In this document: positions 22,613 to 41,122 of the stretch, piece after piece
Layout: each line of letters opens with the position of its first letter
Position numbering within the stretch: the first letter of the stretch is position 1
Source of the DNA: Prostheceraeus crozeri
Taxonomy: Eukaryota > Platyhelminthes > Polycladida > Euryleptidae
DNA: 64,000 bases
Reading direction: 5' to 3'
Assembly (NCBI GenBank): GCA_907163375.1
Contig: CAJQUW010015622.1
Location: forward strand, 1-64,000
Notes under the pieces: model-generated
What the model was told of the DNA's origin: nothing
What the model saw: the letters and a program-made list of their open reading frames with translations, nothing else
Database searches by the model: none
Translations under genes and position numbers: made by a program

Positions 22613-23139
22613 TGGTCAAAAGACCGTTCCAGGACAGGACAGGTCAAAAAAAAATTGGTATCTTTAAAAACGACATAAATTCATGAATTTAGTCCCTTTT
22701 TCAGGTTTTAAAGACCTGAATTCATGAATTTAGTCCATTCAAAAAGTACCATTTTTTCAAAAAATGGTATTTTTAAAAACAACATAAATTCATGAATTTG
22801 AACCCTTTTTCAGGTTATGAAGACCTAAATTCATAAATTTGGGCGTTTTTAAAAATACCCAGTTTTTCAAATTTTTCAAAATCTCAAATTTGAGAATTAC
22901 AATCGGGCGAAGCCCTAGAACCTTCGGTTCGATTTTCACCCCCAAAATCATGACCGTTCTAGGACACCGAAAATCATAAAAGTTGAAAATCTCAAATTTG
23001 AGAATTACAATTTTTACCTTGAAAATCATGACCGTTCCAGGACACCGAAAAAATCAGAAAAGTTAAGAATTTCAAATTCATGAGTTTAGACGTTTTTAGG
23101 TTTTTAAAATATATCATGTGACTAATAATATTTCTTTAA
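22608..23139. repeat. Polinton left terminal inverted repeat
   Basis: Matches 40590-41122 in reverse complement over its whole length; the clear difference seen is one base in a poly-A/T run (9 versus 10). It contains repeated AAATTCATGAATTTA palindromes, repeated TCATGACCGTTC(C/T)AGGACA phrases related to the terminus, and one two-hairpin module at 22904-22931. The 79-codon frame inside (22790-23029, minus) exists only because both TIRs share sequence; it is not taken as a gene. Confidence 0.95.
22904..22931. repeat. Two-hairpin module in left TIR
   Basis: GGGC-GAA-GCCC followed by GAACC-TTC-GGTTC, two short stems with three-base loops. The same module lies in the right TIR at 40800-40825 and inside coding regions near 29652-29680, 30640-30662 and 32460-32488. 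The GCGAAGC core is at 22907-22913. Confidence 0.85.
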
Positions 23140-23141
23140 AA

Positions 23142-23252
23142 GTGGAAGAAACAGCAAGAATATATCCTTCAATATCATATGAACGTAGTTCTGCTACCCC
23201 CTCCCTTCTGTCTTCTAGGGGTCCCTTAAGAAATTTTTTTATTATAAAATGA
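23142..23252 (+). pseudogene. Truncated duplicate of the 5' end of the membrane-protein gene
   Basis: Starting right after the left TIR, an open frame without ATG (first codon GTG) reads EETARIYPSISYERSS, almost identical to the N-terminus of the transmembrane-protein gene at 38119-38796 (EEAARIYPSISYERSS). DNA identity covers about 50 bases. After that the frame diverges and ends at TGA overlapping the protease ATG (ATGA). It looks like a captured fragment of the other end of the element, perhaps a relic of TIR extension or gene conversion. Confidence 0.7.
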
Positions 23253-23737
23253 GCAACATAAATAAGTTTTTTAAATTATATGGAACGCAAACTACGACAA
23301 ATTTCGACCTAAAGAAAATCGCAAATGAATTAGGAATAAAGAATTTTCATGTTCTAATGAGAGACGAATTACAATTCCTAAAAAATAAGCCAACAGGAAC
23401 CTTCAGTTCCCGGAACAAAGTTCCATCAATAACTGTAAATTTCGTAAGCAATCTTCACACTTCAGACCAAAAAGGCGTACATTGGTCAGCAGGCGTTAAA
23501 AATCATCAGCAGAACTATTATTTTGATCGCCCGGAGGCTGAGAACTATTGGTTCGATTCATACGGTTTGCCACCTACAAATGAAGTAAAAGAATTACTTG
23601 GAACGGGAACATACAATACGTTTCAAATTCAAACACCAGGCACTACCTATTGTGGACAATTATTTTTATACGTTTTGTACAAATTACAAAAAGGAGTACC
23701 ATTTCTAGATATTATGTTAGAGTTAAACAATCTATAA
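23249..23737 (+). CDS. PRO: Adenovirus-type cysteine protease (Polinton PRO)
   Basis: Predicted maturation protease of the C5 (adenain) type that would cleave capsid precursors inside particles. The 162-residue protein has the expected order: His78 in GVHWS, Asp103 in WFDSYGLPP, a glutamine near 126-128, and Cys135 in TYCGQLFLYVLYKL. Length is normal for Polinton proteases. The ATG follows an A-rich TTATAAA leader and overlaps the stop of the upstream remnant. It converges with the phospholipase-integrase gene, a GCGAAGC hairpin lying between the two stops. A candidate substrate site, IRGN|G, is near the C-terminus of the protein at 27402-27899. Confidence 0.9.
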   Translation: MSNINKFFKLYGTQTTTNFDLKKIANELGIKNFHVLMRDELQFLKNKPTGTFSSRNKVPSITVNFVSNLHTSDQKGVHWSAGVKNHQQNYYFDRPEAENYWFDSYGLPPTNEVKELLGTGTYNTFQIQTPGTTYCGQLFLYVLYKLQKGVPFLDIMLELNNL

Positions 23738-23771
23738 CTCAAGCGAAGCTAGCTAAAGCGCCACCTAAAGG
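23738..23771. repeat. GCGAAGC hairpin between convergent genes
   Basis: AGCGAAGCT (core 23743-23749) lies five bases after the protease stop, followed by CTAGCTAAAGCGCC and the stop of the convergent integrase gene. The position suits a 3'-end or termination structure for both genes. This is inference from position. Confidence 0.45.
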
Positions 23772-25154
23772 TTAAAGCTCTGTTTTCTGTAATTCATTTT
23801 GATAAAAACGGCCTCTGATATCCTCATTATCTAAATCTTTAATTTCATAAGTAATCGGATAACTTTGATTTATTTTGCAAACTTCAAATATTTCTTTAGT
23901 CCAATAACCAACAAAGCCTTTTTCAAATTTATTCTTATATTTAAATATTCTAACTCTATCTCCAATTTTAAATTTCGGCTTAAGTTTCTGCAAATTCGGA
24001 TTACTCTCATTTGAATTATTATTCTCGAATATTTTCTTTCGTACTAGATCAGGGTCGACAGAAGCATTCTTTGGAGTTTCTTCAATACCAGAATGAACTT
24101 TATTATTGTACTCATCTACAATTCCTGGTAATATTTTTAACCATTTCTGATTTCTTTGCTCAGTAAATTTCTTGAATAACTTATTTTTTAACGTCCGATT
24201 GAATCTTTCTATCACTACGGCCTTCCCTGCATTTTCAGTTGAATAAACAGTTTCAAATAATGGTTGAACGTTTCGGTTATAAAATTCCGATCCTTTATCA
24301 ACAAACAATTTTTTTGGCTTTCTATTACTTTCTTTAAAGATTTCTTCAAACGCATATTTAACTGATAGACCACTTTTATTTTTTAAAGGTTTCACCCAAG
24401 CGTATCGTGTATATAAATCTATAACGGTCAATGCGTATTTATAATCAGAATCATTCGGCATATGAATAAGATCAGCACTCCAAATATCATCTTTATTAAA
24501 TACTTTTACTTTCAATAGATATTTCGGCTTTCTATATTCCTTGTGAATTTCGGACGCGTAGGTTCGAGCGTTGCTCTCAGAGTTATTAGTTCGAGCGTTG
24601 CTCTCAGAGTTATTAGTTCGAGCGTTGCTCTCAGACAGCTTAGCTGTCGTTTCATTTAAACCCTGTCCGAATAATATTTTAGCTTGTAAAGCTTTCTTAA
24701 CAAACATTCTTTCAATTTTTTCTCTAAATGTAGGATTCTGAATACTATCTAATTCTTGTATCATCTTCTTATCAGCTGCATGACGAGAACTTAGATCATG
24801 ATTTCGATAAGCTAAATCATGCCTGTAAGCGGCGGCGTCTACTCTATTTATCGGTTCTTCACCTGGTTTCGGATTATTATTCTCATCTAGTCTTATATCT
24901 AATCGAGTTCCTGGACCGGTATATGAATGACCAGGAAGATGTTTTTCTTTCGAATACTTACTCCAAATAAATCCAGGAAAGTTTTCTAATGTTTTTTGTA
25001 TGTCACCACCGTAGGTAGTAGCCAAACTTTGTTTGTCGTCGTTACCTTCATAAATTTTACAATTTGAGTTTTCATTTTTGTTTAATAGATAATTCAATAA
25101 ATCTAAATTAGAAATTTTTAATTTAGTTAAATTTTCGGAATTTGTAGAATTCAT
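23772..25154 (-). CDS. INT: Phospholipase A2-like domain fused to DDE integrase
   Basis: One 460-residue frame joins two activities. Residues 77-125 form a PLA2-like domain of the parvovirus-capsid/invertebrate type: GHSYTGPGTRLD (calcium loop, 76-86) and RHDLAYRNHD (catalytic His-Asp at 112-113). A linker of three SESNARTNN-type repeats (174-199) follows. Residues 216-365 form a retrovirus-type integrase core with Asp228 (WSADL), Asp286 (VDKGSEFYN) and Glu316 (IERFNRTLKNK). Residues 391-455 form a small SH3/chromo-like C-terminal domain (FKIGDRVRIFKYKNKFEKG). The N-terminal HHCC zinc finger usual in Polinton integrases was not seen. The integrase would insert element DNA; the lipase part would suit membrane passage of a particle. 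Confidence 0.88.
   Translation of the reverse strand: MNSTNSENLTKLKISNLDLLNYLLNKNENSNCKIYEGNDDKQSLATTYGGDIQKTLENFPGFIWSKYSKEKHLPGHSYTGPGTRLDIRLDENNNPKPGEEPINRVDAAAYRHDLAYRNHDLSSRHAADKKMIQELDSIQNPTFREKIERMFVKKALQAKILFGQGLNETTAKLSESNARTNNSESNARTNNSESNARTYASEIHKEYRKPKYLLKVKVFNKDDIWSADLIHMPNDSDYKYALTVIDLYTRYAWVKPLKNKSGLSVKYAFEEIFKESNRKPKKLFVDKGSEFYNRNVQPLFETVYSTENAGKAVVIERFNRTLKNKLFKKFTEQRNQKWLKILPGIVDEYNNKVHSGIEETPKNASVDPDLVRKKIFENNNSNESNPNLQKLKPKFKIGDRVRIFKYKNKFEKGFVGYWTKEIFEVCKINQSYPITYEIKDLDNEDIRGRFYQNELQKTEL
24562..24642. repeat. Triple 27-bp tandem repeat in the PLA2-integrase linker
   Basis: The unit starts GTTCGAGCGTTGCTCTCAGA, is repeated almost exactly three times, and keeps the frame. 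Each unit holds GAGC-GTT-GCTC, another stem with a three-base loop. The last unit runs into GACAGC-TTA-GCTGTC. The repeat makes a hydrophilic linker. Confidence 0.85.
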
Positions 25155-25237
25155 TTTAAAAGATAAAATAAAAGTTTTACCTAATCAGACCAAAGGTCCT
25201 GAGGTTTTAACCGATCGGACCAAACGTTCTGAGGTTA
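25155..25237. repeat. Tandem ~33-bp hairpin repeat between two minus-strand genes
   Basis: Two copies of a unit around CC(G/A)ATC(G/A)GACCAAA, one with GACC-AAA-GGTC able to pair, lie just downstream of the stop of the 25238-25780 gene. An A-rich leader then precedes the integrase start. Confidence 0.6.
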
Positions 25238-25780
25238 TTACCGAATCATACTAGGACTTAGATATATTCCAGAACCATCTTTAGTTTCTTTAATTTCAAT
25301 TAAATCATCAACATTGTGGAGAATATTTTTAAGAACTCGTTTTCCTTCATCAACTAATTTTAATTTACTAATAAAATTATCTATTACTCCTTTTCCTTCG
25401 GGCGAAGCCCTGGAAGACATCTCCGTTGACCCATGAACCGATGTCCCTTCACCCCTAGCAACTTTCTCTAACTCTCTGTTATGGCGTTTTTGTTCTTCTA
25501 ATGCTGCCTTCTCTGATTTATTTTTATTTACTGCTTGGACAATACCAGCTGTCCCACCTGCAACACTTCCTGCTGCTGCTATGCCACCTATTATTAGGGG
25601 AATTAATGGGAGAATCCCGCCATTCTTTTCTTCTTGTAATTGAATATTCTCTATCATTGGTTTACTTATGTAATACTTTTTTTTATTAATAGTAATAGTT
25701 TTAGGGGTATTTTTGTCAACAATATTACGTAATTTTAATTCAACAGTTTTATTATTAATATTACTTTTCGCTTGCGACAT
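25238..25780 (-). CDS. Small capsid-associated protein with hydrophobic GGILPLIPL segment
   Basis: 180 residues. A glycine-led hydrophobic segment (about 54-84, GGILPLIPLIIGGIAAAG and following) is followed by a basic helix (NKNKSEKAALEEQKRHN). The pattern is reminiscent of small adenovirus core/minor capsid precursors, which carry a similar segment and are cut by the viral protease; IIGG|I fits the (M/I/L)XGG|X rule. An in-frame hairpin module inserts TEMSSRASPEGKG around residues 115-127. The gene sits in the capsid block between integrase and major capsid. Role is inferred. Confidence 0.6.
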   Translation of the reverse strand: MSQAKSNINNKTVELKLRNIVDKNTPKTITINKKKYYISKPMIENIQLQEEKNGGILPLIPLIIGGIAAAGSVAGGTAGIVQAVNKNKSEKAALEEQKRHNRELEKVARGEGTSVHGSTEMSSRASPEGKGVIDNFISKLKLVDEGKRVLKNILHNVDDLIEIKETKDGSGIYLSPSMIR

Positions 25781-25973
25781 TTTTAATAAAAAAATTTTAA
25801 GTTATCAAAAATTTAAATCTATTCTAGTTATGAAAAATTTTAAGTTATCAAAATTTTTAATCTATTCTAGTTACCAAAAATTTTAAGTTACCAAAATTTT
25901 TAATCTATTCTAGTTATGAAAAAATTTTTAAGTTAAGAATTTTTAATCTATTCTAGTTATGAAAAAATTTTAA
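25781..25973. repeat. Tandem repeats derived from the 3' end of the capsid gene
   Basis: Four or so imperfect ~45-50-bp units carry AATCTATTCTAGTTA. This is the complement of the last codons and stop of the adjacent capsid gene (TGACTAGAATAAATTAA), so the array seems to have grown from that gene end. It lies between that stop and the leader of the 25238-25780 gene. Confidence 0.7.
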
Positions 25974-27308
25974 TTAATTTATTCTAGTCATCTTCCCATT
26001 AAGAATTTCAATAGAATATTTTACATCTTCTAGCAATAAACCATAAGCCATCAATGAAGTTGTGGAATCTTTCTTTTCAATATTAATTGTTACATCACAA
26101 CCATTTTTAATAATATCTTCTATTTGTGCACTTAAATCGAAACAGAAAATTGGATATAAATGTCTCCAATCTCCAGGAGTTAATTGTGGTTCAACTCCAA
26201 ATTCTATACAAAGATTTCTATAAGCATCATATCCTTCCATAAATTGATTATTGGTATCATCGAATCTTAATGGATCAATTGGATATCGAGTTTGATTTAA
26301 TGGAACTTGTAAACTTCGAATTGTATTAATATGAAAAATATTATTGTTCTTATCAAAACTTGGAGAATTATTTCTTTGAAATGTTAGTAATAAATATCTT
26401 GGAGTATTCGCAGTTCTAGTAAAATGCCAGTTAAATCTTTGTTCGGAAAAAGTTACTGAACTAGCAGTACGCTTTAGAAAACTTACTGGAATTGGTTTGC
26501 TAGTATTTAATCTTTTAGCAATAGCTGTTTCAATCTCTAAACTAGGAGTAATATGCTTAATCCACCATTCAAGTCTATCAATTTTTAAATATGCTTTTTT
26601 TCCAGTCTTACCAAAAAAGATTAATTCATTATTTGCTGTACGATGAATTATTAATTTAAATTTTAACTGATATGATATTTTAACATAATCTAAATATCCG
26701 AATAATGGAGACAATGACCAATTTACTGTTTGCTTACTTTTCTTGTTAAATTCACGTCTTTCTTTATATGCAGTATTGTTTGTTTTATTTAAATGTTTTG
26801 CAATATTTTCTACATCTTTCGCAATTCCTGCGGCATCTGTTCCAGCGTGAGTTAAATCCTCAATAATTATGCCATCATTAGTATCAGGAAACCAACCTTC
26901 GATTTCATGCTTTTTATTATTTTCACCAATTATTACAAATCTAAGCATTGTATCAATTACACCTGGAGAATCACTTATTGTTTCTATATTTTGAGTTGCA
27001 ACATCTAAACGCATTTGTGTAAATAATCTTGGAAAAAAATTATTCTCTAGTGTAATATTATCGGTATCTGGTAATGGTGTTGTAAAATTAGCATCACTAT
27101 ATAAAGAATATTCACAGTGTAAAAATGAATCAGGTAAATATAAATAACTCTGCTGATTATCAACTTCAAAGATTAAATCTCCTCCAGTATTTACTCTACT
27201 GGAAGATCCGGGATTCATAGCAATTCTTATATAGTCATTCTTTTTTTGATTATAACTGACGAACGGAGGATCGTCTAATCTAAATTTATTTTCAATAAGC
27301 GAAGACAT
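25974..27308 (-). CDS. MCP: Major capsid protein, double jelly-roll type
   Basis: The 444-residue protein has the Polinton major-capsid layout: an N-terminal YNQKKNDYIRIAMNPGSSSR strand region, then GGDLIFEVDNQQSYLYLPDS, then LENNFFPRLFTQMRLDVATQ followed by IETISDSPGVIDTMLRFVI. The NNxxxxLFxxxxxxxxxxxIExIxxPGxxxTML pattern is conserved in the family. The C-terminal half has alternating beta-strand character (YLLLTFQRNN, IDPLRFDDTNNQFMEGYDAYRNL). It would form the pseudo-hexameric capsomers. It is somewhat shorter than many family members. Neighbours are capsid-associated genes. Confidence 0.8.
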   Translation of the reverse strand: MSSLIENKFRLDDPPFVSYNQKKNDYIRIAMNPGSSSRVNTGGDLIFEVDNQQSYLYLPDSFLHCEYSLYSDANFTTPLPDTDNITLENNFFPRLFTQMRLDVATQNIETISDSPGVIDTMLRFVIIGENNKKHEIEGWFPDTNDGIIIEDLTHAGTDAAGIAKDVENIAKHLNKTNNTAYKERREFNKKSKQTVNWSLSPLFGYLDYVKISYQLKFKLIIHRTANNELIFFGKTGKKAYLKIDRLEWWIKHITPSLEIETAIAKRLNTSKPIPVSFLKRTASSVTFSEQRFNWHFTRTANTPRYLLLTFQRNNSPSFDKNNNIFHINTIRSLQVPLNQTRYPIDPLRFDDTNNQFMEGYDAYRNLCIEFGVEPQLTPGDWRHLYPIFCFDLSAQIEDIIKNGCDVTINIEKKDSTTSLMAYGLLLEDVKYSIEILNGKMTRIN

Positions 27309-27401
27309 TTTTATAAAAAATAATTTGACTTTTTGTTTTTCTCATAGACAGAAAAAAATTTTACTAAAAAAATTACTAAAAAATTTTACTAAAATATAAT
27401 T

Positions 27402-27899
27402 TTAGAATTTTGCTAGACCATTACCTCTTATTTCTTCAATTGTTTTTTCATTATGTTTACTATCAGACGGAGCTCCGCTCCTCAAGGTTTCCCCAACAGC
27501 AATGTTAGCAATTTTGTTCTTTGTTTCATCTGAAAGTTTTTTTAATTTTTTTAGTTCTTCGGAATCATTCCTAAGTTTACGAATAGCCTCTAGTTGTTTT
27601 AATTCGTTTTGAGACTTGACAGCATTTGATATTGCACTAGCTGTACTACCTATAGCAGCTGCTCCTTTTGCAGCAGATGTAATCAAATCTTTATTATTTT
27701 TAATTAAGTTAACGATACTACCAATACCAGAGAAGATCCCAGCTCCTTCCGTGTGAACGGCACCTGCGGTGCCTAGGAACTTTTCTGTTCCGACTGTTTC
27801 TCTATTATCATAATGATAAACAGGATTCATACGTGGTTCATGAGCAATTTTTTGATTTGAAGCAAAATGTTTAAGATTGTGTTTATAAATTATAGGCAT
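27402..27899 (-). CDS. Small capsid-associated protein with amphipathic helix and C-terminal protease site
   Basis: 165 residues. A glycine-rich, membrane-seeking region (GAGIFSGIGSIVNLIKNNKD and KGAAAIGSTASAISNAVKS, about 53-95) is followed by a charged helix and ends EIRGNGLAKF. IRGN|G fits the adenain rule (M/I/L)XGX|G, so the last five residues would be released. This resembles the layout of the adenoviral membrane-lytic protein VI, whose C-terminal peptide activates the protease; the comparison is by layout only. A GGAGC-TCC-GCTCC hairpin (about 27469-27481) lies in frame near residues 140-144, and GGCACC-TGC-GGTGCC near 27758. Confidence 0.6.
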   Translation of the reverse strand: MPIIYKHNLKHFASNQKIAHEPRMNPVYHYDNRETVGTEKFLGTAGAVHTEGAGIFSGIGSIVNLIKNNKDLITSAAKGAAAIGSTASAISNAVKSQNELKQLEAIRKLRNDSEELKKLKKLSDETKNKIANIAVGETLRSGAPSDSKHNEKTIEEIRGNGLAKF

Positions 27900-27939
27900 T
27901 TTTTAGGATTAAATTTGACTTTTGAGAAAAATATTTACG

Positions 27940-28551
27940 CTAAGATTTACGTTTGTGAATGGACAACAACTTCGAGATAACTTTATTAATTGACTGTTGC
28001 ACTTTATATATTGCGTCAAGCAGCGTGTGATGTACTTTAATTTCTTTTCTATTAACTTGCATTTTCTGCTGATTAATCTTCAATGCCGTTTTAAGAGCAT
28101 TTAACTTAATTTTAAGAACATCTAATTGTCTTTTAATAGAATCTAACTGTTCTTTATTTTCTTTAGAGTTTTCTTGTAAATTTTTCTTTAATTCATTTTC
28201 TAAATTGATTTTAAGAGTTTTCATTTTATCAACTCTTTGATTAAGTGAGTTTACTTCATTTATTATTCTATTCATCTTTTTCATTTGTTGAGTAATTTTA
28301 GAACTTAATTCATCAACACTTTTTTGGAATGTAGTTTGTAACTGCTTTAATTTTTTTTTAATTCTTTCAGGTAGTTTTTCTATTTCATCTTCTAATTGTT
28401 CTTTTAACATTTTTATCTGATGTTTATTTTTAATTACAGCAGATTTTAACTTTATAGAAAGTAATATTAAAATTTTTGATTGTTCAGAAATCCTTTTAAA
28501 AAGTTTTGCTATATTTGCTTCTAGCTCTCTATCCTTTTTATCAAGTTTTAA
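27940..28551 (-). pseudogene. Fibre-like protein, coiled-coil part behind a premature TGA
   Basis: Downstream of TGA 28552-28554 the same frame stays open for 47 codons to the ATG at 28410 and on for 156 more. The product is lysine- and glutamate-rich with continuous heptads (KQLQTTFQKSVDELSSKITQ, ENELKKNLQENSKENKEQLD), a long trimeric or dimeric coiled coil ending in a basic tail. It is best read as the shaft of the protein begun at 28552-28827. It might also be translated alone from ATG 28410, which has the usual A-rich leader (ATAAAAATG). Confidence 0.6.
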
Positions 28552-28827
28552 TCATTTTTCATTTAATGATTTGTCATTAAGTTTAAGCAACTTTAATTCG
28601 TTCATCATTGGAACCATAACATCGTTTATATATTTTTCCTTTAAGTCATTGATTTGTGTATCAACATATTGTTTATTTGTTAACTCTGTATTTTGTTGCG
28701 GAAGAATAGAAAGATGCAATGGACCAGATAAAACGTCTCCAGTTTTCATAATATAATTTTCTATCTCTATTTCTAATTCACGATTATTCGGGATATATGC
28801 ACCTCCACCAACATTTGGTAACATCAT
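28552..28827 (-). CDS. Fibre-like protein, N-terminal part, ending at an in-frame TGA
   Basis: 91 residues from ATG 28827. It opens with a GGG-containing segment (PNVGGGAYIPNN), then MKTGDVLSGPLHLSILPQQN and ELTNKQYVDTQINDLKEKY. The pattern MKxGDxLSGxLxL..P...xLxNKxYVDxxI is the repeat motif of phage tail-fibre and spike proteins, which trimerise and carry receptor-binding parts. Coiled coil follows. The frame stops at TGA 28552-28554 but stays open beyond, so one nonsense mutation (or readthrough) splits the gene. It diverges from the 28933 gene over a 105-bp A/T-rich promoter. Confidence 0.6.
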   Translation of the reverse strand: MMLPNVGGGAYIPNNRELEIEIENYIMKTGDVLSGPLHLSILPQQNTELTNKQYVDTQINDLKEKYINDVMVPMMNELKLLKLNDKSLNEK

Positions 28828-28932
28828 TTTTAAAACAATAAAAAAGTAAAATTTTTTCTAATAAAAATAAAAAAATAAAATTTTTTCTAATAAAGATAAA
28901 AAAATAAAATTTTTTCTAATAAAAATAAAAAA
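28828..28932. promoter_or_regulatory. Bidirectional promoter region with tandem A/T repeat
   Basis: Three ~31-bp units of AAAATAAAATTTTTTCTAAT fill the gap between two divergent starts (28827 minus, 28933 plus). Like other starts in the element, both ATGs directly follow an A-run. Confidence 0.5.
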
Positions 28933-30198: not shown

Positions 30199-30262
30199 TA
30201 TGATAAAGCTTAATATGATAAAACTTAATATGATTAAACTTAATATGATAAAGAAAAAAAAA
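30165..30262. repeat. 18-bp minisatellite spanning a stop codon
   Basis: Units of ATATGAT(G/A)AAAC(A/T)T run through the last codons and stop of the 28933 gene and on into the gap before the polymerase gene. Changes of one base per unit turn coding units into stops, so the length of this C-terminus is likely to vary between copies. Confidence 0.7.
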
Positions 30263-33300: not shown

Positions 33301-35096
33301 TTATGGAAGAAAAACAACTTCCTCCAATAAATAAATTTAAATCAACATTAAAACAATCACAATTATCTGACGAAGACTATGCAGAAGCTGAAAAGAATTG
33401 GAGAGAGTTAAATTGTAAAACAATGTATGATTATACAATGAAATATCTTCAGATAGATGTGTTAATACTAGCTGATCTTTTTGAAAACTTTCGTGATATG
33501 TGCTTAGAATATTACGGAATAGATCCATGTTATTGTTATTCTACACCAGGTTTAACATGGTTAGCAGGATTAAAACATACTGGTGTTCAAGCCGATGGCT
33601 CTAGGACAAAGTCCGTTAAACTTAAACATTATAAAGAAAAAACATATGATAAATTATTATTTTTTGAATCTGGAATTAGAGGTGGAGTTTCATCAGTTTT
33701 AGGTAATCGTTATGTACAGTGTTACAATAAAAAAGTAAATCCTGATGATTATGGAATAATGAAACCTTTATCTCCAGAAGAAAGTGATCAGTTTATAAAA
33801 TTGTTTAATCAAAATATAGAAGGACTTATATCAAATGAAGATAGTCAAGCAGCAGTTGATGAAATCATGAGAGAAAACTATTTGTTATATTATGATTTTA
33901 ATAGCTTATATTCTTCTTGCATGATACAAGAATTACCAACAGGTGAAATGTCATGGTGTAATATTATTGATTATCAAAGAACATATGATGGTGAAAATAA
34001 TTTTGGTTATGTATATGAAGTTGATTTAGTATACCCTGATTATATAAAAGAAGCAACAAAATATTATCCTTTCTGTCCAGAAAACAAAATTCCCAATATA
34101 GAAGATTTTTCAGATTATCAAAAATCTATGATTCCGAAAAAATACAGACCAACAAAAAAACTTATGTTAACACAAAGCAATAAAGGAAAGTATGTTGTTG
34201 AAGGAAGAATGCTAGATTGGTATTTAGATCATGGTATGATTCTCACCAAAATACATCGAAAACTAGAGTATAGAAAATCTAGGTGGTTAAAAAATTATAT
34301 AGAGTTCAATATTGAAAAACGCAAAATAGCTAAAAGAAATAAAGATGATTTTGGAAACGTGTTCTTCAAATTAATGAATAATGCATTTTATGGCAAGACT
34401 TTAGAAAATGTGCGTAATAGACAAAATATTGAAATAGTTTATGATAGAGATAGATTTCAAAATTTAACAAGGAAACCTACATATAAAAGAACTACTAGAT
34501 TCAGTGATGAACTTTGTGCTGTTCATCTAAGAAGAAGCATTGTAAAACATGATAAGTTTAATTTCATTGGTTTCACTATATTAGAATTAGCTAAACTATT
34601 TATGTATAAATTTATATATGATTATTTAGCACCTGCTTATGGCAAAAACTATAAATTACACTTTACAGATACCGATTCTATTTTCTTAGAATTAACAGTA
34701 CCATATGGTTCTTCACTTGATAAAGAAATTAATAAAATAAAAGATATTATTCATCCTTCTGATTTATGTAAAGTAAAAGATGAATTAGAAGGAAATGAAG
34801 ATTTCATAACAGAAGCTATATTTTTAAAATCTAAATGTTACTGTTATGATACAACTAATAATATTAAAACACATAAAACATTAAAAGGAATTTCAAAGGC
34901 ATCAGTGGCTAATCAAATAACATTTCAAGATTATAAAAATGCATTATTTAATAATGAAATAAAAACAGCATGTAATTATAGACTTAATTCAAAAAAACAT
35001 AAAATGTATTTAAAAGAAGAACATAAATTAGCATTAGATCCATTTGATGATAAAAGAAAAATTTTACCTGATGGAATAACTACTGAACCTTTTTAA
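30384..35096 (+). CDS. POLB: Protein-primed-type DNA polymerase B (Polinton PolB)
   Basis: 1570-residue replicative polymerase. In order: N-terminal C2H2-like finger (FYCNLCKKKLQTKRSYQSH); a CFLWSIIAHLHP region (~288-300) typical of Polinton polymerases; a second finger (FPCLQCMTSFRTLEEMNRH, ~610); exonuclease motifs ExoI DFEAY (662-666), ExoII NGSKYDFH (849-856) and ExoIII YLQIDVLILADL (~1020); a CxxC...HDH...C cluster (~793-835); polymerase motif A YYDFNSLYSS (~1169-1178), motif B NNAFYGKT (~1332-1339) and motif C TDTDS (1428-1432); then the K-rich CYCYDT box. It is longer than most relatives partly because of in-frame hairpin modules (TEGSRASP, TSKMSSRASP, TSKMSFRASP, KARGASLR, TESSRASP, QALEPS, GSRTKS) and coiled-coil spacers (430-600). 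All catalytic acids are present. Confidence 0.93.
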   Translation: MENTKFYCNLCKKKLQTKRSYQSHLNSKLHLQNVERVDEGNILKLNSYKNYLETLPTDIKVKKMFDDYSHSEYKKVFNSEDETIQTEGSRASPVPDGRYLFSDTDEFDEAERTDEAEHGTSKMSSRASPLTDIKYLFNESVHGTSKMSFRASPVEYNETDKTFSDILTNFYNIFKKSFKCYMNVEVLYTKNGSDGIPEEIIQGHFTKSQEIHNVNNIQPIFQSMILKLENCIIEAQLRESGWRFVKILSKKIVIDKYKNNTGGSYVPLPFSSPQIINIKNEDDYCFLWSIIAHLHPAKYHKERLSHYNKEEYINEFDLSDGLDEFPYDYNRLIKFHKKNKNLIEVNVFELNVNYVSIGKITPLYSDSKKFYLNNKNLCQSEIVYNDRGNYMHHNIFYQGNIICTEKFELVKTLSPIMINHNNYKGRTDDYNYKYSSLSSEYQQKLENLNKSLQKCKIDYQQQTKMLLQEYHHKYQNKIETIPKLNEENNKKLNNKELNNEENKESAKARGASLRLNECLKKCLQQYKEQYDKEYIYQLQILNQNYYQNTFNITKEINETHEIYKDEFEKLEQSKQPAQANILYYQGHFILCKDVSIFTKTSDNKNFPCLQCMTSFRTLEEMNRHLENCQQNEAVRNTFPKDDYLEYNKWYFKNKVPFTIYCDFEAYNVNMTQNRTESSRASPDSKNDNSENGTGQALEPSVCNYEKSAPEQSKEKYLFEQKPLCWGMYIHSNYPELFNSEYLQYYGEDSSEMFTKKVEELQGRFSQLLETNIPMMPLTEKEKINFVNETNCYYCGREFAKNYKNGRGRYLDKVKDHDHLNGLYRGAAHNSCNLNANKFKYNFVPLYFYNGSKYDFHLVMKDLFSSEKLQQQQINVLCKTEEEYFSMQLGCIRILDAFRFFTPYSLDVMGKTLKSEQCKILNKYNLKPLKGIFPYEYIACGSQSTYGSQSKTDITGDKTCGPQSKTNFNSVNKIMEEKQLPPINKFKSTLKQSQLSDEDYAEAEKNWRELNCKTMYDYTMKYLQIDVLILADLFENFRDMCLEYYGIDPCYCYSTPGLTWLAGLKHTGVQADGSRTKSVKLKHYKEKTYDKLLFFESGIRGGVSSVLGNRYVQCYNKKVNPDDYGIMKPLSPEESDQFIKLFNQNIEGLISNEDSQAAVDEIMRENYLLYYDFNSLYSSCMIQELPTGEMSWCNIIDYQRTYDGENNFGYVYEVDLVYPDYIKEATKYYPFCPENKIPNIEDFSDYQKSMIPKKYRPTKKLMLTQSNKGKYVVEGRMLDWYLDHGMILTKIHRKLEYRKSRWLKNYIEFNIEKRKIAKRNKDDFGNVFFKLMNNAFYGKTLENVRNRQNIEIVYDRDRFQNLTRKPTYKRTTRFSDELCAVHLRRSIVKHDKFNFIGFTILELAKLFMYKFIYDYLAPAYGKNYKLHFTDTDSIFLELTVPYGSSLDKEINKIKDIIHPSDLCKVKDELEGNEDFITEAIFLKSKCYCYDTTNNIKTHKTLKGISKASVANQITFQDYKNALFNNEIKTACNYRLNSKKHKMYLKEEHKLALDPFDDKRKILPDGITTEPF
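30636..30842. repeat. Three in-frame two-hairpin modules in PolB
   Basis: Modules around 30636-30662, 30737-30770 and 30809-30842 each pair a variable stem (ACC-GAA-GGT or GACATC-AAA-GATGTC) with GGGC-TTC-GCC(C). All keep the frame and encode ...SRASP or SFRASP. GCTTCGC cores are at 30654, 30762 and 30834. Others in the gene: core 31914 (GGAGC-TTC-GCTCC), core 32421, an inverted variant at 32460-32488, and GGAC-AAA-GTCC near 33603. Confidence 0.85.
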
Positions 35097-35204
35097 TTTT
35101 CTAATTTCTAAGATAGACAAATTTCATATATACATAAAATAAAAAAATATTAAAACACTATATTTGTATATTTTTTATCACTCCGCGAAAATATTTTCTA
35201 TCGA

Positions 35205-35241
35205 CTTTCAGTCGGGGCGAAGCCCCTCAAGGCGAAGCCTA
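35205..35241. repeat. Double GCGAAGC hairpin between convergent PolB and ATPase genes
   Basis: GGGGC-GAA-GCCCC (core 35217-35223) is followed by AGGC-GAA-GCCT (core 35232-35238), which abuts the ATPase stop codon. It lies 110 bp past the PolB stop. The position suggests a 3'-end structure. Confidence 0.7.
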
Positions 35242-36006
35242 GTCAGAGAACAATTGTTCGATAACTCTTTCATGAATTTTTTTATCAATATTAATTGTAA
35301 TGAAGCCATAATCTTTTGACCAAGCATTGTTATACGATTGTTTAAATTCATCTTTATTTCTTACACATAAATCTCTTAACAAATCACTTAAGTTTCTTGC
35401 ATTTATTTCAAATAGTATAAATATATTTGCATTCTTTCTAATAACACTTCCGTCTAATGAATACATACTTTGTGTTAAATAAAAAACACTACAGTTATTA
35501 TGTCTACCTCGTGTAAAATAATTTCTCTGAACTGACTGATTTCTATCATTAACACAATCATCAAAAATTACACAATGTTTCATTGTTTTATCTAGTTTAC
35601 TAGGATCTTGCATATTACCACTATCATCTATTAGTTGTATCTTTATATGCTTATTTTTATTGGTTTCAACTGACTGATTATTTTTTGTTGCTTCTTCACA
35701 CCACGAACTTATTTCTTCTTCATCTTCAGATTTTTCATATTCTTTGAATAATGAAGGAACTGCTGTTTTTTTAAGATTATTTTCAAATCCATATTTTAAA
35801 AATTGATAGACGGGTTGTTCTGCCGTTGTTGTATAAATTATAAGATTGTTATAATCCAAAAAATTTGGAGTCGTCAATATTTTAAACAATAGATACGTTT
35901 TTCCACATCCTGATCTTCCACAAATAACTGACAAAACTTTATTAGATAAATTTGGATGATGATTAAATTTAAGTTTTTTTTTATTTAATGGTAGTACTTC
36001 ACTCAT
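35239..36006 (-). CDS. ATP: A32/FtsK-type DNA-packaging ATPase
   Basis: 255 residues. Walker A GRSGCGKT is at 30-37 and Walker B CVIFDD at 145-150, followed by the NYFTRGRHNNCSVFYLTQSM region with the sensor threonine/glutamine. This is the genome-packaging ATPase shared by Polintons, adintoviruses and large DNA viruses (A32 in poxviruses), which would pump DNA into the capsid. Length is normal. It is one of a run of minus-strand genes with the penton and 37168-37982 genes. Confidence 0.9.
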   Translation of the reverse strand: MSEVLPLNKKKLKFNHHPNLSNKVLSVICGRSGCGKTYLLFKILTTPNFLDYNNLIIYTTTAEQPVYQFLKYGFENNLKKTAVPSLFKEYEKSEDEEEISSWCEEATKNNQSVETNKNKHIKIQLIDDSGNMQDPSKLDKTMKHCVIFDDCVNDRNQSVQRNYFTRGRHNNCSVFYLTQSMYSLDGSVIRKNANIFILFEINARNLSDLLRDLCVRNKDEFKQSYNNAWSKDYGFITINIDKKIHERVIEQLFSD

Positions 36007-36074
36007 TTTTTAATAAAAAAATTTATTTTTATTTTATTTTTATTTCTAAAGAAGAAGAAAATTAGACTTATCTA

Positions 36075-36167
36075 GCTTCGCGTGGGAGTTTATACCTCTC
36101 GAACGGGAGTTTATACCTCTCGAACGGGAGTTTATACCTCTCGAACGGGAGTTTATACCTCCCGAAC
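36075..36167. repeat. GCTTCGC core plus four 21-bp tandem repeats after the penton gene
   Basis: GCTTCGC at 36075-36081 is followed by four units of GGGAGTTTATACCTCTCGAAC. Each can pair GGGAG with CTCCC or CTCTC. The array overlaps the last codons of the penton gene on the other strand and extends beyond its stop. Confidence 0.75.
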
Positions 36168-36941
36168 CAAAAGATCTATCATAATCTCTTCACCTCCAAA
36201 ATTTATTTCTTGTCCTTTTTCATCAGTGATTCTCATGTTAATGTTGTTAATAGTTTTTCTTGTAATAGGGAAATATATTAATGTTTGTGGAATTACATTT
36301 AGTCTATAACCAATGGGTACAGTAAAAGCTGGAAAACTGAATATTAAATTTGATAATTTACCATTTATATATCCTCCTTCAATAATGTCACAATGTACAA
36401 CAATTGAATTTATTTCAGTTATTTTTGGAATCTTCTCACCTAAATGATAACCTTGACTATAAGTTTGTTTATTAAATCCTAATAGCTTTGACAATGATCT
36501 ATCATGATTAAAATCAACTTGATGATTTTCGTCTAAAGTAAGAGAAAATTTATTAACTGCCGGTTCAACTGCAAAATGTAATTGTTTCTTATCTTTAAAT
36601 GGTATACCTAAATGTCTCTTAATTTCATTTGATATTGATTCAACTTCGTAAGAACCAGGAAGAAAAGTTAGTACTTTCCACGTTTTGCCTTTATCAGTAG
36701 AATATCTAAATTGATCATTCACATCTTTGATAACGTTTTGAATAGTGTTAAATGTAGAGAAACTAGTCAATGCAATTTGATAATTTTTATTTTGTTCCAA
36801 ATGTAGAGTGGGTTCTAAATTACAAGTGTGTGATGAAGTAGTTGTTATAATTTTTAACGTCGTACTAAATTTTGATGAACCCAAAATCTCTGTCAAATTT
36901 TCTAAATGATTATTTATTTTGTCTAAATCTGCTGAACACAT
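36153..36941 (-). CDS. Minor capsid (penton) protein
   Basis: 262 residues with the conserved Polinton penton pattern: LEQNKNYQIALTSFSTFNTI (48-67), a LPGSYEVESISNEI segment, LSKLLGF, then INSIVVHCDIIEGGYINGKL and FPAFTVPIGYRLNVIPQTL, ending in beta-strands to VREV. It is predicted to be a single jelly-roll pentamer at capsid vertices. Start ATG at 36941 follows an AACTAAAAA leader; the downstream end carries a 21-bp tandem repeat. Confidence 0.85.
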   Translation of the reverse strand: MCSADLDKINNHLENLTEILGSSKFSTTLKIITTTSSHTCNLEPTLHLEQNKNYQIALTSFSTFNTIQNVIKDVNDQFRYSTDKGKTWKVLTFLPGSYEVESISNEIKRHLGIPFKDKKQLHFAVEPAVNKFSLTLDENHQVDFNHDRSLSKLLGFNKQTYSQGYHLGEKIPKITEINSIVVHCDIIEGGYINGKLSNLIFSFPAFTVPIGYRLNVIPQTLIYFPITRKTINNINMRITDEKGQEINFGGEEIMIDLLVREV

Positions 36942-36954
36942 TTTTTAGTTAAAA

Positions 36955-37125
36955 TTTTGAATAAATATTATAGATAAAAATCGTAGATAAAAATCATAGA
37001 TAAAAATCGTAGATAAAAATCATAGATAAAAATCATAGATAAAAATCATAGATAAAAATCATAGATAAAAATCGTAGATAAAAGTCATAGATAAAAATCG
37101 TAGATAAAAATCATAGATAAAAATT
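36955..37125. repeat. 14-bp minisatellite, about twelve units
   Basis: Units of ATAGATAAAAATC(A/G)T, twelve or so, fill the gap between the penton start and the stop of the next gene. It may act as an A/T-rich promoter spacer for the penton gene. Confidence 0.85.
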
Positions 37126-37141
37126 AGAAACAACATATTTC

Positions 37142-37182
37142 AGCTACGGGCGAAGCCCTGGAGGACATCAGAGATGTCCGGT
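37142..37182. repeat. Two-hairpin module supplying a stop codon
   Basis: GGGC-GAA-GCCC (core 37150-37156) is followed by GGACATC-AGA-GATGTCC. The second stem encodes the last residues and stop (TGA at 37168-37170) of the minus-strand gene above it. Confidence 0.8.
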
Positions 37183-37610
37183 TATACTTTTATAATCCTC
37201 TTCATTTAGAATCTTCTTTTCTAACAGTCTTTTCAATATAGCATGAATTTCATTGAAACTAGAATTATGTCCTTCTTTTATTGCAGATATTAAAATATTT
37301 AATCTATTTAGTAATTCTTGTGGATCATCTGGTAAAAATATGGTTGTTTCTGTTTTCTGTTTTTCAGATAAACCTTTTCCTACTTTAACTCCCGTTGATA
37401 ATAAATTTTCTAATTGTTTATAACGTCTTAGAGACTTTACTGCACCAACTCTATCTAACATAGCTTTATATTTTATAAGATCATCTACAGCATAATTATT
37501 CAAATCTGCTCCTCTTAAAAGATTAACAAAATTTCTATCTAAATTAAAAGGAGATTTATCTGGTGAAAAAATTAAACCTCGAAAAGGTTGTGGAAATATT
37601 TCTTTTGTCC
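37168..37610 (-). pseudogene. C-terminal part of a frameshifted Polinton structural gene
   Basis: This frame is open upstream past 37503 (where the first codon is only TTG, not ATG) into the 3' end of the 37572-37982 frame, so it lacks its own start. It encodes DLIKYKAMLDRVGAVKSLRR and ends KSITGHL at a stop inside the hairpin module. The two frames together resemble a conserved Polinton protein of unknown role with a 'xYLGxKxY...GL...YxxxDxxxYxxIL' region. One frameshift near 37590-37620 separates them. Confidence 0.6.
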
Positions 37611-37982
37611 GAGATAAAATCTAGGTATTGTTTTTCCATCTATAAATGAGATAGAATGTTCAAATTGCATAGATTTTGGTAATTTCTTATTAATGTTTGA
37701 TTCTAGTAATCCATAGTCATCTAATATAGTTTTGTGCTCTGGATCTGTTATATCAATTTGTTTATCATTAAGTTCTTTTTCAAGAGTTTTAAATGGTTCG
37801 ACAGTTTTTTCATAATCAGTTTTTACTTGCTCGGTTTGCTGCATTTTTTCATACATATCAGATTGAATACCAGCTTTTATCATTCTATGTTGAAGATGAT
37901 TTTCTTTCATAATATTTCTTTGTTTTATTAACTCTTCTAATTGTTCAATTCTTTTTTGATTATCAGCTTTAATTTTATCCAT
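37572..37982 (-). CDS. N-terminal part of a frameshifted Polinton structural gene
   Basis: Start chosen at ATG 37982 (MDKIKADNQKRIEQLEEL) because it follows the A-rich leader seen at other starts; an upstream ATG at 38048 would add an unlikely hydrophobic tail. The first ~70 residues are coiled coil. The end (LPKSMQFEHSISFIDGKTIP, then RFYLGQKK) matches the conserved core of a Polinton-wide unknown protein. It then shifts frame and stops at 37572. Product intact only if the shift is an error or is bypassed. Confidence 0.6.
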   Translation of the reverse strand: MDKIKADNQKRIEQLEELIKQRNIMKENHLQHRMIKAGIQSDMYEKMQQTEQVKTDYEKTVEPFKTLEKELNDKQIDITDPEHKTILDDYGLLESNINKKLPKSMQFEHSISFIDGKTIPRFYLGQKKYFHNLFEV

Positions 37983-38118
37983 TTTTAAAATATAATATTT
38001 GAATTTTGGGGTAACATTGGAATACAACAAAAACATTTTACTGAACAAATTATTTTTTTATTGCTTTGTTGTTTGACATCTTTTCGTTTAAAGTTTTCTC
38101 GTTTAAAGTTTTCCTGTT

Positions 38119-38796
38119 TTAAGTTTTGTTTAATAAAGTTTTGCTTAAATTTTCGCTTAAAGTTTTTAGCTCTTCTAAAAAAATTTTGTCATTTTCTTCA
38201 TTAGAAATTTTGCCATCACTAGAAATTTTGCCATCCTGTTTATTCTTATCATCAACTTTTTCGGACTGTAATTGAAAGGTTTGATTTACTTCATTAGCTA
38301 TTTGATCAAATTTTTCAATCTCATCTAACGTAATAACATTATCATCACATACTCTTTGAAAGTAGTAATGTAGTTTATCATAGACTTCTTTAATATGTAA
38401 ATGCTTAGTTTTTAATGATTTTCGTTTCTTAGTTATTAAAGATTTATCTAACATTGTAACAAGTGAAGTTGCAAAAACACCCGTACCTGTTAAAGCTGTA
38501 GCAACTACTGGAATTACTAAAACACCTGAAGATATAACAATTGTTAACGTACCTAAACTTATTGTTAAGAATATACCAATTCCTTGTGTTACATTCTTAA
38601 CTTTAGACCATCTCTTTCTTAACTTTTTATAATGTTCTATTTTAAATAATAATTGAGATTCCTTATCTTTCATATACCTAACTCTATCTTTGTGTTTTTC
38701 TTTATTCATTTTTTCAATGTTAATCTTTTCAATATCCATTAAAGTAGAACTACGTTCATATGATATTGAAGGATATATTCTTGCGGCTTCTTCCAT
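38119..38796 (-). CDS. Membrane protein with hydrophobic hairpin, unknown
   Basis: Start taken at ATG 38796 (MEEAARIYPSISYERSS), which follows TTTAAAA; an in-frame upstream start at 39051 would read through host-like DNA and is rejected. A charged helix precedes two hydrophobic stretches (GIGIFLTISLGTLTIVISSG and VLVIPVVATALTGTGVFATS), then a long charged helix, a short DGKISSDGKISN repeat and a helical tail. Likely to span or insert into a membrane. Family not identified. A truncated copy of its 5' end lies beside the left TIR at 23142-23200. Confidence 0.6.
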   Translation of the reverse strand: MEEAARIYPSISYERSSTLMDIEKINIEKMNKEKHKDRVRYMKDKESQLLFKIEHYKKLRKRWSKVKNVTQGIGIFLTISLGTLTIVISSGVLVIPVVATALTGTGVFATSLVTMLDKSLITKKRKSLKTKHLHIKEVYDKLHYYFQRVCDDNVITLDEIEKFDQIANEVNQTFQLQSEKVDDKNKQDGKISSDGKISNEENDKIFLEELKTLSENLSKTLLNKT

Positions 38797-38869
38797 TTTT
38801 AAAGAAATATTTTGAATAAATATTTTGAATAAATATTTTGAATACAATCTTCTGAATTTTGATTTAAAT

Positions 38870-39461
38870 AGAAATACGCAGTTGTTTGTTTGCCGTATAT
38901 TTCTAAGAACACAGTCAGACCAAAAGCTCTGGGAGAGGATGGGACGAAGAGGGAGAGAGAACAAAGGAATTGTTTGCCAGTATGAATCGTAGATTAGCAA
39001 TTGAATTTTTTGTTTACTCCAGTATAGCTCTACTGCCCAATACCGATGCAATCGTACATGTTATGAGGATAAAAAACTACTCTTCATTCCACGAAAAATA
39101 TCCTTTTTTGGGAAGAAATGCATCTTAATGCACATTTTAATTAGTTTTTGCAGAAGAAGTCGCTAATCTTAGTTTTGTTTCGCTTGACTTGGTTTGACGT
39201 TGAACATTGAAGTGGTGACAGCTGCGGCGGCTTGTGGCAGACAATAGCGCCAATGCGGGTATGATTTAGTCGCTTCGTTGGGGCAAAGGTCATAAAGATT
39301 CTCTCTCTCTCAGAAACAGCTGCTGCCATTATTCCAAGTATTACAATTTTAGTCTTACTGCGTGCTCTAATTACTGCGTGCATTCATTCTGTGAGCGTTC
39401 TACGAGACTGTTGACTGTTTACAATTTATCCGAGACCCAAAATATCGAAGCTGTGTCAAAA
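38870..39461. other. Host-like, G/C-richer segment inside the Polinton
   Basis: From about 38890 the sequence changes from the A/T-rich style of the element to a mix with CTGGGAGAGGATGGGACG, GCTGCGGCGGCTTGTGG and a CTCTCTCTC run. It precedes the plus-strand gene at 39462 and may be its promoter, brought in together with it. Open frames on the minus strand here look random. Confidence 0.45.
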
Positions 39462-40154
39462 ATGAGTGCTTCTATTCATCGCGAATTCCTCAAATTTTGT
39501 GATCAAGTACTTCCACTCATCAAAGATGAGAAGATAGATTTTTTCAAAACTCTTATTGTAAATCATGAATTCTATTTTCAAAAGAAGATAAAACCAGAAA
39601 AAGAGGACAAGAAAAATGAGATTTTTTCTGAAATAAGAAACTCATTTTCATCAGGACAACTAATCCAACGACAGCTCGACGTGAGTGCACAGGCGACATG
39701 CACTATCCAAAACTGTGTTACAACTCTACATTCTCTAATTTATCAAGAAAAAGTACACAATAATTCTTCCTTATCAATTGCTATTTGCCAAGGATTTGTG
39801 ATATCTAAATTAAAATCAATGGAACATTTGTCAATGGTAGCCTTTACTCAAAAGTTGGAGAGTGAATATAACATTAAATTCTCAAGAAGGTATGTAACGT
39901 TTTTGATAAATTTATATCGCCTTTCTCAAGCTAACACAAAGCTTCAAACATGTACTTTAAGTATATTCTTTGTTTTCAAAAGCTTTAAGTATTTTGAAGA
40001 TTATTTTGAATTTGAAAAAGAGGAACAGTTGCTTCAAATTAGCTCAGGGATATTTTCTTCCCAAGAATCCAATCAAACATCTGATATGACAACTGGACTA
40101 ACGCAGCAATTAGAGACACAACATATACAGGAGCGCCAAACACAAAATGAGTAG
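39462..40154 (+). CDS. Unknown gene of different composition near the right TIR (candidate cargo)
   Basis: 230 residues from ATG 39462 (MSASIHREFLKFCDQVLPLI). Mainly helical: KDEKIDFFKTLIVNHEFYFQ, a polar middle with SAQATCTIQNCVTTLHSLIY, then KFSRRYVTFLINLYRLSQAN and a glutamine-rich tail. No known domain recognised. Codon use is less A/T-biased than in the viral genes around it. An upstream in-frame ATG at 39378 is possible. Its edge position, own upstream segment and composition suggest acquired cargo; function unknown. Confidence 0.5.
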   Translation: MSASIHREFLKFCDQVLPLIKDEKIDFFKTLIVNHEFYFQKKIKPEKEDKKNEIFSEIRNSFSSGQLIQRQLDVSAQATCTIQNCVTTLHSLIYQEKVHNNSSLSIAICQGFVISKLKSMEHLSMVAFTQKLESEYNIKFSRRYVTFLINLYRLSQANTKLQTCTLSIFFVFKSFKYFEDYFEFEKEEQLLQISSGIFSSQESNQTSDMTTGLTQQLETQHIQERQTQNE

Positions 40155-40480
40155 TATGTATTGACAATCATTTTATGTAACAGAATAGAAAAATGGGAAT
40201 GAGCATTCGCAGTTTATAAATGAAACAGTGGTTGCTTTTTCTTGTATTGTAAGACTTTGCTATATTATGTGAGTAGCATGCATTAACATTTTATTTTGTG
40301 AGACGGAATAAGAGAATGGGAATGAGCATTCGCAGCTTATAAATGAAACATTCTTTATTTTTTCTTATACTGTGTGACTTCTAGCATATTATTTGACGTA
40401 GTGGTGTGTATTGTCAATCATTTTATGTAACAATAGAAAAATGGGAATGCCATTCCCAGTTTATGAATGTAACATTTTTC
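40155..40480. repeat. Three ~115-bp tandem repeats after the cargo gene
   Basis: Three diverged copies carry AATGGGAATG(AG)CATT(C/G)... and TTATAAATGAAAC; the third has the palindrome GGGAATG-C-CATTCCC. They follow the stop at 40154 and lead toward the right TIR. Confidence 0.75.
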
Positions 40481-40589
40481 TAGTTGTCATATATTTACTT
40501 TGTAATCTAAACTACTTGCACATATATGTGAATAAAATATTTCATAAAGAAAAAAGAATGTGTTTTCATTTTGCATTAACCGCTACCTG

Positions 40590-41122
40590 TTAAAGAAATA
40601 TTATTAGTCACATGATATATTTTAAAAACCTAAAAACGTCTAAACTCATGAATTTGAAATTCTTAACTTTTCTGATTTTTTCGGTGTCCTGGAACGGTCA
40701 TGATTTTCAAGGTAAAAATTGTAATTCTCAAATTTGAGATTTTCAACTTTTATGATTTTCGGTGTCCTAGAACGGTCATGATTTTGGGGGTGAAAATCGA
40801 ACCGAAGGTTCTAGGGCTTCGCCCGATTGTAATTCTCAAATTTGAGATTTTGAAAAATTTGAAAAACTGGGTATTTTTAAAAACGCCCAAATTTATGAAT
40901 TTAGGTCTTCATAACCTGAAAAAGGGTTCAAATTCATGAATTTATGTTGTTTTTAAAAATACCATTTTTTGAAAAAATGGTACTTTTTGAATGGACTAAA
41001 TTCATGAATTCAGGTCTTTAAAACCTGAAAAAGGGACTAAATTCATGAATTTATGTCGTTTTTAAAGATACCAATTTTTTTTTTGACCTGTCCTGTCCTG
41101 GAACGGTCTTTTGACCATTACT
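40590..41122. repeat. Polinton right terminal inverted repeat
   Basis: Reverse complement of 22608-23139, ending CCATTACT. It includes the two-hairpin module at about 40798-40825 (GCTTCGC 40816-40822). Confidence 0.95.

Follow-up and report, generated by a model that had tools for sequence, protein, structure and literature searches.

Probable mobile mini-palindromes in the Polintons of the flatworm Prostheceraeus crozeri

In the bacterial REP and IS200-IS605 systems, small hairpins serve as the single-strand substrates of mobility. Small hairpin elements have also been described in mitochondria and in some bacteria. Yeast mitochondrial GC clusters are mobile units of 30-80 bp, one class of which often lies beside another (PMC4464245), and they occur in the var1 open reading frame (ORF) and stay in the RNA (PMC2800124). 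Fungal double-hairpin elements and the repetitive hairpin-forming elements (RHE) of sponge mitochondria are repeated hairpins or double hairpins, located mostly in spacers and sometimes in genes, that are presumed to be mobile (PMC2800124); the sponge RHE has constant stems and varying loops (PMC2800124), and the Allomyces double-hairpin elements are cited in the same paper as having no flanking duplications. The Rickettsia palindromic elements are palindromic repeats that lie in frame in protein genes (PMC10969869). Here, we analyze 64,000 nucleotides of DNA from the polyclad flatworm Prostheceraeus crozeri (GenBank assembly GCA_907163375.1, contig CAJQUW010015622.1, positions 1 to 64,000 of the forward strand), referred to throughout as the window, which contains a Polinton, a virus-like element, studded with short units of two adjacent hairpins.

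Taken as a whole, the evidence is probably best explained by mobile mini-palindromes living inside Polintons, because filled and empty sites, short target repeats, recurrence in both orientations, a shared layout, the keeping of the reading frame and absence from relatives all point the same way. That the units are mobile appears very probable from the copies compared. No title on such units in Polintons appeared among the literature matches listed, the scope of which leaves out most subscription papers.

Two-hairpin units at filled and empty sites

A sequence-only reading of the window had pointed to the heptamer GCGAAGC/GCTTCGC, and all 13 positions that it listed are exact. Between 22904 and 40825 these 13 occurrences compare with a mean of 0.23 (maximum 3) in 300 dinucleotide shuffles, and the 9-mer GGCGAAGCC/GGCTTCGCC occurs 10 times against a mean of 0.01 (maximum 1) in as many shuffles; the complete 11-mer GGGCGAAGCCC/GGGCTTCGCCC is present at 8 of the 13 heptamer positions. 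The accompanying claim was that most heptamers stand beside a second stem; 11 of the 13 lie in two-hairpin units, and those at 23743 and 36075 lie outside such units. The heptamers at 35217 and 35232 belong to one unit, and those at 22907 and 40816 represent a single insertion that each terminal repeat contains. Further units are built alike but lack the heptamer, at 23396, 24619, 29653, 32461, 33193, about 33252 and 33588. Strictly defined two-hairpin pairs number 8 in the Polinton versus 0.04 in 50 shuffles of it (maximum 1), and 0 in 45,470 bp of flanking host DNA, of which 10 shuffles give 0.9 (maximum 2).

The commonest unit length is 28 bp, others being 31, approximately 33-37 and 59 bp. 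As a single strand, a unit can fold into a pair of neighbouring small hairpins, or into four in the case of the longest unit; most loops measure 3 nt, and in many units the two end bases pair as C-G or T-A. Five units, namely A, L, I and, in reversed orientation, J and C, share a common 28-bp layout, in which a first base is followed by a hairpin of 13 nt, two spacer bases, a hairpin of 11 nt and a last base that pairs with the first. In six representatives, with J entered twice, 55 of 60 cells are Watson-Crick, and sliding the partner leaves at most 17 of 54. Loops of 3 nt occur in 31 of 43 distinct hairpins (about 27% in shuffles), and DNA folding of seven units returns two adjacent hairpins at -3.9 to -8.0 kcal/mol. 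Rfam gave no match at the gathering threshold in 22600-41130. The Polinton and its units are as follows, where handles from L012 to L031 denote the sequences aligned with it.

22608..41122, no strand assigned: Polinton carrying the units, delimited from inverted repeats, ends and Pfam domains
22904..22931, minus strand: unit A, 28 bp, in the left terminal repeat; target repeat AT; copies without the unit exist
23396..23424, plus strand: unit F, two hairpins, inserted in frame within a 162-aa ORF; missing from L025 and L028
24619..24649, minus strand: unit K, 31 bp, within the PLA2-like/integrase ORF; missing from L013 and L025; target repeat AA, seen in L027
25399..25447, minus strand: derivative of unit B whose first loop is enlarged, within a 180-aa ORF; missing from L024 and L025; no simple short repeat in the flanks
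29653..29680, plus strand: unit A variant in a 421-aa ORF (RTEGSRALP); L015 lacks the unit, with no clean empty site
30636..30663, plus strand: unit A variant in PolB (TEGSRASP); target repeat TA; L024 has B, L025 has A+B
30735..30770, plus strand: unit B in PolB (TSKMSSRASP)
30807..30843, plus strand: unit B in PolB; target repeat TT exact in L024, imperfect in the window copy; empty in L016; A in L012 and L029
31897..31924, plus strand: unit C in PolB (AKARGASLR), flanked by AT; repeat-rich; copies without the unit, no clean empty site
32403..32430, plus strand: variant of unit A within PolB; target repeat AT; L020 has an empty site, and L012 and L017 have a B-type unit
32461..32488, minus strand: unit A variant in PolB, in the opposite orientation (GQALEPSV frame)
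33193..33238, plus strand: unit J in PolB, with internal duplication; target repeat TA; 28-bp form in L016, L026 and L031
33252..33279 (boundaries approximate), plus strand: second J-type unit in PolB
33588..33615, plus strand: unit I within PolB (QADGSRTKS); target repeat TT; 7 copies have an empty site
35202..35260, minus strand: unit D, 59 bp, four hairpins, lying between PolB and the ATPase gene; target repeat AT; L021 has a tandem array
37147..37181, minus strand: unit B in non-coding DNA; L017 has an empty site, L019 has A, and L016, L026 and L031 have tandem units
40798..40825, plus strand: unit A in the right terminal repeat, the same insertion as at 22904

Slippage-like variants of the core hairpin (GCTTCGCGCTTCGC) are seen in L013, L014 and L028, at two different sites.

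An alignment of 21 sequences, the window's Polinton and L012-L031, contains 332 indel events in 174 clusters, 75 of which are clean and 20-70 bp long. At least two hairpins occur in 29 of these 75, whereas shuffled inserts give 1.3 (maximum 5 in 200 shuffles), and the G+C content is 54% in two-hairpin inserts versus 38% in other indels. A junction repeat of at least two bases accompanies 24 of the 29 hairpin inserts (the clusters are not independent), where insertion without duplication predicts 7.4%. Inspection of 18 tabulated sites by eye, one after another, shows two or more target bases exactly repeated at 14 of them, and at each of the 18 the unit is missing from some copies. Four sites have AT (the terminal repeat, 32403, the D site and a non-coding C site), three have TA (30636, 33193 and 37147), three have TT (33588, the L026 site and, in L024, 30807) and two have AA (those of K and L023), whereas the repeat is AC for the L site and, in L027, GATGG for the F site. 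Given unit ends of the common layout, two target bases suffice everywhere but the GATGG site, and 37147 needs one extra base.

The same units recur at different places. Across the 21 sequences, unit A falls into 7 flank clusters, B into 9 and C into 4, some of which are the same site, and within PolB unit A is found in both orientations (at 30636 and 32403, and reversed at 32461). One copy has A where another has B at 30636, 30807, 32403, 37147 and the non-coding site; two sites, 30636 and 37147, have units in tandem (A+B or B+B), the second unit in L025 sits at the repeated dinucleotide of the first, and L021 holds a D-type tandem array with 61-bp spacing. Furthermore, units I and J are absent from PolB in all 11 relatives compared (one of them 76% identical in the alignment), and the PolB of relative P0001 also has no inserts at 32403-32488; the units at 30636-30843 are not judgeable in P0001 because its N-terminus is missing. 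Units I and J and the 32403-32488 inserts look like gains, as judged from these proteins. A mobile mini-palindrome was one of two possibilities raised by the sequence-only reading, and it is supported by filled and empty sites with short target repeats, by the recurrence of one unit at different sites in either orientation, by units in tandem, and by the absence of I and J from the 11 relatives.

Abundance and units inside genes

In the 2.05-Gb genome, GGGCTTCGCCCG has 6,136 + 5,888 = 12,024 matches, and its reversed control has 4 + 5 = 9. A 26-base piece of unit A has 4,039 matches, the pattern of unit B 3,652 and unit I 1,154, each with 0 for the control. A 26-base PolB marker matches exactly 3,870 times, and there are therefore thousands of Polinton copies, whole or partial; if every marker match were a full-length copy, Polintons would make up about 3.5% of the genome, an unusually large load. 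We read 20 stretches around matches from the first hundred GGGCTTCGCCCG matches listed and 5 at listed places of the unit A 26-mer, and all 25 are Polinton DNA at the unit match: 19 of the first 20 match Polinton proteins, the twentieth contains 357 bp of Polinton terminal repeat at the unit, and the 5 later stretches align to Polinton copies. Among the 100 matches listed, 80 have an exact PolB marker no more than 20 kb away, in zones that cover at most 7.6% of the genome, and 3 of the other 20 fall in the stretches read, all 3 of them Polinton. So far, the units have been found in Polintons only, as far as the assembled sequence was sampled, and the 25-base core of unit A has no exact match in GTDB prokaryote genome contigs.

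Many of the insertions concern genes. GC-rich clean indels that contain a hairpin number 45, and 34 of them lie inside a Polinton ORF match or at most 20 nt away from one. The length is a multiple of three in 33 of these 34 versus 6 of the 11 elsewhere (Fisher p 0.002); none of the 27 framed insert peptides contains a stop codon, and the capsid and ATPase genes have none of the 34 insertions. Within this set, A, L and I inserted in the sense direction share one phase, giving RTEGSRASP, DRTEGSKTKS and QADGSRTKS. At the level of sequence, then, Polinton proteins are predicted to carry short extra peptides such as RTEGSRASP, and the genic inserts look translated and tolerated. This argues against ribosomal bypass. 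In bypass elements of the byps type, a hairpin with a short flanking repeat lies inside a gene and ribosomes skip the insert, so that frame and stops need not be kept. The least likely of the explanations that we weighed is that the units are such elements, which they recall in their hairpin, short flanking repeat and genic position, since 33 of 34 insertions are multiples of three and 0 of 27 peptides have a stop, as expected if translated, and since the same units also lie in non-coding DNA.

Mechanism and alternatives

To judge from the filled and empty copies compared, a unit inserts at a new site and leaves a short repeat of target bases, most simply two; one unit has reached several sites in both orientations, and a unit may stand next to an earlier one. 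Protein-primed, strand-displacing replication is the mode of this type of polymerase, and the units might be copied during such replication of the Polinton, when single strands can fold. We give replication-linked copying about an even chance, because every stretch read is Polinton and the units' target repeat falls short of the 6 bp that Polinton integration produces; the Polinton's own integrase is an unlikely mover, since the unit repeat differs from the six bases of Polinton integration. Enzymes of the endonuclease-VII type cut branched DNA, and a segment of PolB resembles them:

32712..32888, plus strand: endonuclease-VII-like segment of PolB, aa 777-835, a candidate branch-cutting activity

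This domain is matched in 9 of 12 aligned PolB proteins at E <=0.01 (best 7e-08), and, fused to PolB, it is a candidate cutter of the folded, branched units, although we think it unlikely that it has a role in their movement.

Several observations weigh against mobile mini-palindromes or reduce the force of the evidence for them. The raw junction repeat is more often 3 than 2 bases (14 and 5 of 29), and other clean indels, many of which are tandem-repeat changes, also show junction repeats of at least two bases (31 of 46), so that a repeat alone is no proof of transposition. Four of the 18 tabulated sites have no clean repeat: 25399 is complex, the non-coding L025:1162 is unclear, and 29653 and 31897 have no clean empty copy. 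Units common to several copies also reflect shared descent or recombination. The layout scan returned 71 instances and 30 distinct strings versus 3.4 in 20 shuffles (maximum 9), but it also matches 45 kb of host DNA 3 times, which makes layout alone not specific, and it counts some units on both strands. Folds of single units are modestly better than those of shuffles (z -1.5 to -2.5). Covariation, which the sequence-only reading proposed to score, is found, with changes on both sides at 5 of 10 pairs, a count that none of 500 shuffles reach and that falls to 2 such pairs with a slide of -2, in an alignment of 12 variants hand-picked by the analyst and without four J rows, misaligned by MAFFT; further pair types, one of five measures, are not above shuffles (183 of 500). 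The 34 genic insertions include a few repeat-type inserts, e.g., 63-bp arrays by a penton-like ORF, and the frame excess reflects selection only in part because 28+2 bp is already a multiple of three. The endonuclease-VII match of the window's own PolB is below the Pfam cut-off (E 0.0048, 17.2 versus 23.6 bits). Finally, insertion with a short target repeat, spread, nesting and the frame filter can be read from the compared sequences, and transposition is inferred from that same comparison.

The units could instead be functional parts of the Polinton, such as packaging, replication or regulatory hairpins, under selection on structure. Such selection was the other possibility raised by the sequence-only reading. 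In its favour, pairing is kept between units of different sequence, and units lie in both terminal repeats and between convergent genes. On the other hand, some copies have no unit at each of the 18 sites, type and orientation vary, many units are inside genes, and 11 PolB relatives have no units I and J. A pair is broken in 5 of 9 unit A rows, and such broken pairs are as expected for passengers after insertion; that unit A variants often break a pair argues against a lasting structural function in the Polinton. Core-versus-flank conservation at the terminal-repeat site was not used, as the pattern by which rows were chosen largely predetermines the core and the flanks contain tandem repeats. 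The d(GCGAAGC) loop was also given prominence in the sequence-only reading, but a special role for it is unsupported because other units carry the triloops AAA, GAT, GCA, TAA, AAC and TCT. We regard a functional part as improbable.

There is an equally small chance that the hairpins are made anew by mutation, i.e., by polymerase snap-back or template switching that creates local inverted repeats with no mobile unit. Such an origin would fit the variety of stem sequences that carry 3-nt loops, as well as tandem units and slippage variants, GCTTCGCGCTTCGC among them. Against it, neither arm is seen in the clean empty sites tabulated, the two-hairpin inserts average 54% G+C in a Polinton that is mostly 24-31% in 2-kb windows, and one 28-mer occurs at several sites, a 26-mer of it 4,039 times in the genome with a control of 0. 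It is less likely still that the units are joined ends remaining after excision of a larger transposon with hairpin termini. Two different adjacent hairpins and a short flanking repeat could look like such a scar, yet a second hairpin lies no more than 30 nt upstream of 57 of the 63 GGGCTT[CT]GCCC hairpins in the 21 sequences, the other 6 resemble units in which a loop has grown or a pair has been lost, and no longer form with separated halves was noticed in the 21 sequences, in which no search was aimed at one.

The carrier Polinton and known systems

The carrier is a typical Polinton as regards both its genes and the 6-bp duplication of its target. It has terminal inverted repeats, the duplication CAGAAC (22602-22607 and 41123-41128), PolB, an RVE integrase, a double jelly-roll capsid and an A32-like ATPase; Pfam matches in its ORFs comprise the RVE integrase core, a PLA2-like domain, the double jelly-roll capsid and the A32-like ATPase. 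The PolB of 1570 aa is recognised via homologues, several with DNA_pol_B_2, a domain matched in 4 of 12 aligned PolB proteins and in the window's own PolB not at E 0.01. The terminal repeats comprise two arms of 497 and 47 nt that are 100% complementary, about 535 bp together, with a one-base register difference between them, and 109-bp tandem repeats lie inside them (22650-22867 and 40858-41075). A single ORF (23772-25154) fuses a phospholipase-A2-like domain to the RVE integrase core, and the penton-like ORF at 36153-36941 is so labeled by the analyst, with no Pfam match. Tandem arrays of 21 bp and 13 bp lie at 36084-36167 and about 36938-37140, and Polinton copies differ by indels of them. 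The Polinton starts at the end of a piggyBac-type transposase ORF (21968-22612), and the host flank holds DDE_Tnp_4 transposase ORFs at 44109-45176 and 50443-51765 and a lectin-like ORF with no homologue at E 0.001. Lottia gigantea, a mollusc, is the named source of 2 of 45 capsid relatives. Viral contigs scanned with the PolB alignment and the capsid gave 42 and 6 matched stretches that encode no relative, and those scanned with the pattern GGTTCNAGGGCTTCGCCC gave 3 stretches of 60-71% G+C with a single match each and no second hairpin seen.

Compared with Polintons, or Mavericks, in general, the small units are passengers, two of which are absent from the PolB of 11 relatives. No transposase of the REP or IS200-IS605 type is among the Pfam matches of the scanned Polinton ORFs, although no search was aimed at one, and with respect to a miniature inverted-repeat transposable element (MITE), which has its terminal inverted repeats in common with an autonomous transposon, no longer parent was noticed in the 21 sequences; the whole assembly was not searched for one.

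The closest likenesses are with the mitochondrial and bacterial elements. Like yeast GC clusters, the units are small and, very probably, mobile, occur also in ORFs and sometimes adjoin another unit; unlike them, they reside in a nuclear Polinton and have one two-hairpin triloop layout in thousands of copies. GC clusters are mitochondrial, divided into sequence classes M1-M4 and apparently of other sequence than the units. Two adjacent hairpins at many sites are the hallmark shared with double-hairpin elements, but the units differ from those of Allomyces in their short target repeats at 14 of 18 sites and in being in a Polinton rather than mitochondria, and from the mitochondrial sponge RHE in their different stems with kept pairing. 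With the Rickettsia palindromic elements they share insertion of a palindromic repeat in frame in protein genes, whereas those are about 150 bp and in bacterial chromosomes and the units here are 28-60 bp and in a Polinton. As far as tested, therefore, the units resemble all three in how they work and are not members of any by place, size or flanking repeat. We advance only tentatively, as somewhat unlikely in its entirety, that they may form a new minimal class of mobile DNA in an animal nuclear genome, defined by fold, with several sequences in one exact 28-bp double-triloop layout, mobilised in trans by the replicative enzyme of the Polinton itself, a fusion of PolB and an endonuclease-VII-like domain, and living as a parasite of a virus-like element to whose proteins it adds peptides.

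If the explanation by mobile mini-palindromes is right, hairpin parasites like those of mitochondria and some bacteria are also present in a virus-like element of an animal, and they offer one route by which short peptides enter virus-like proteins. The thousands of copies provide filled and empty sites in unusual number, which opens the movement of tiny palindromes to statistical test and allows target preference, duplication length, nesting, loss and frame selection to be read from the copies.

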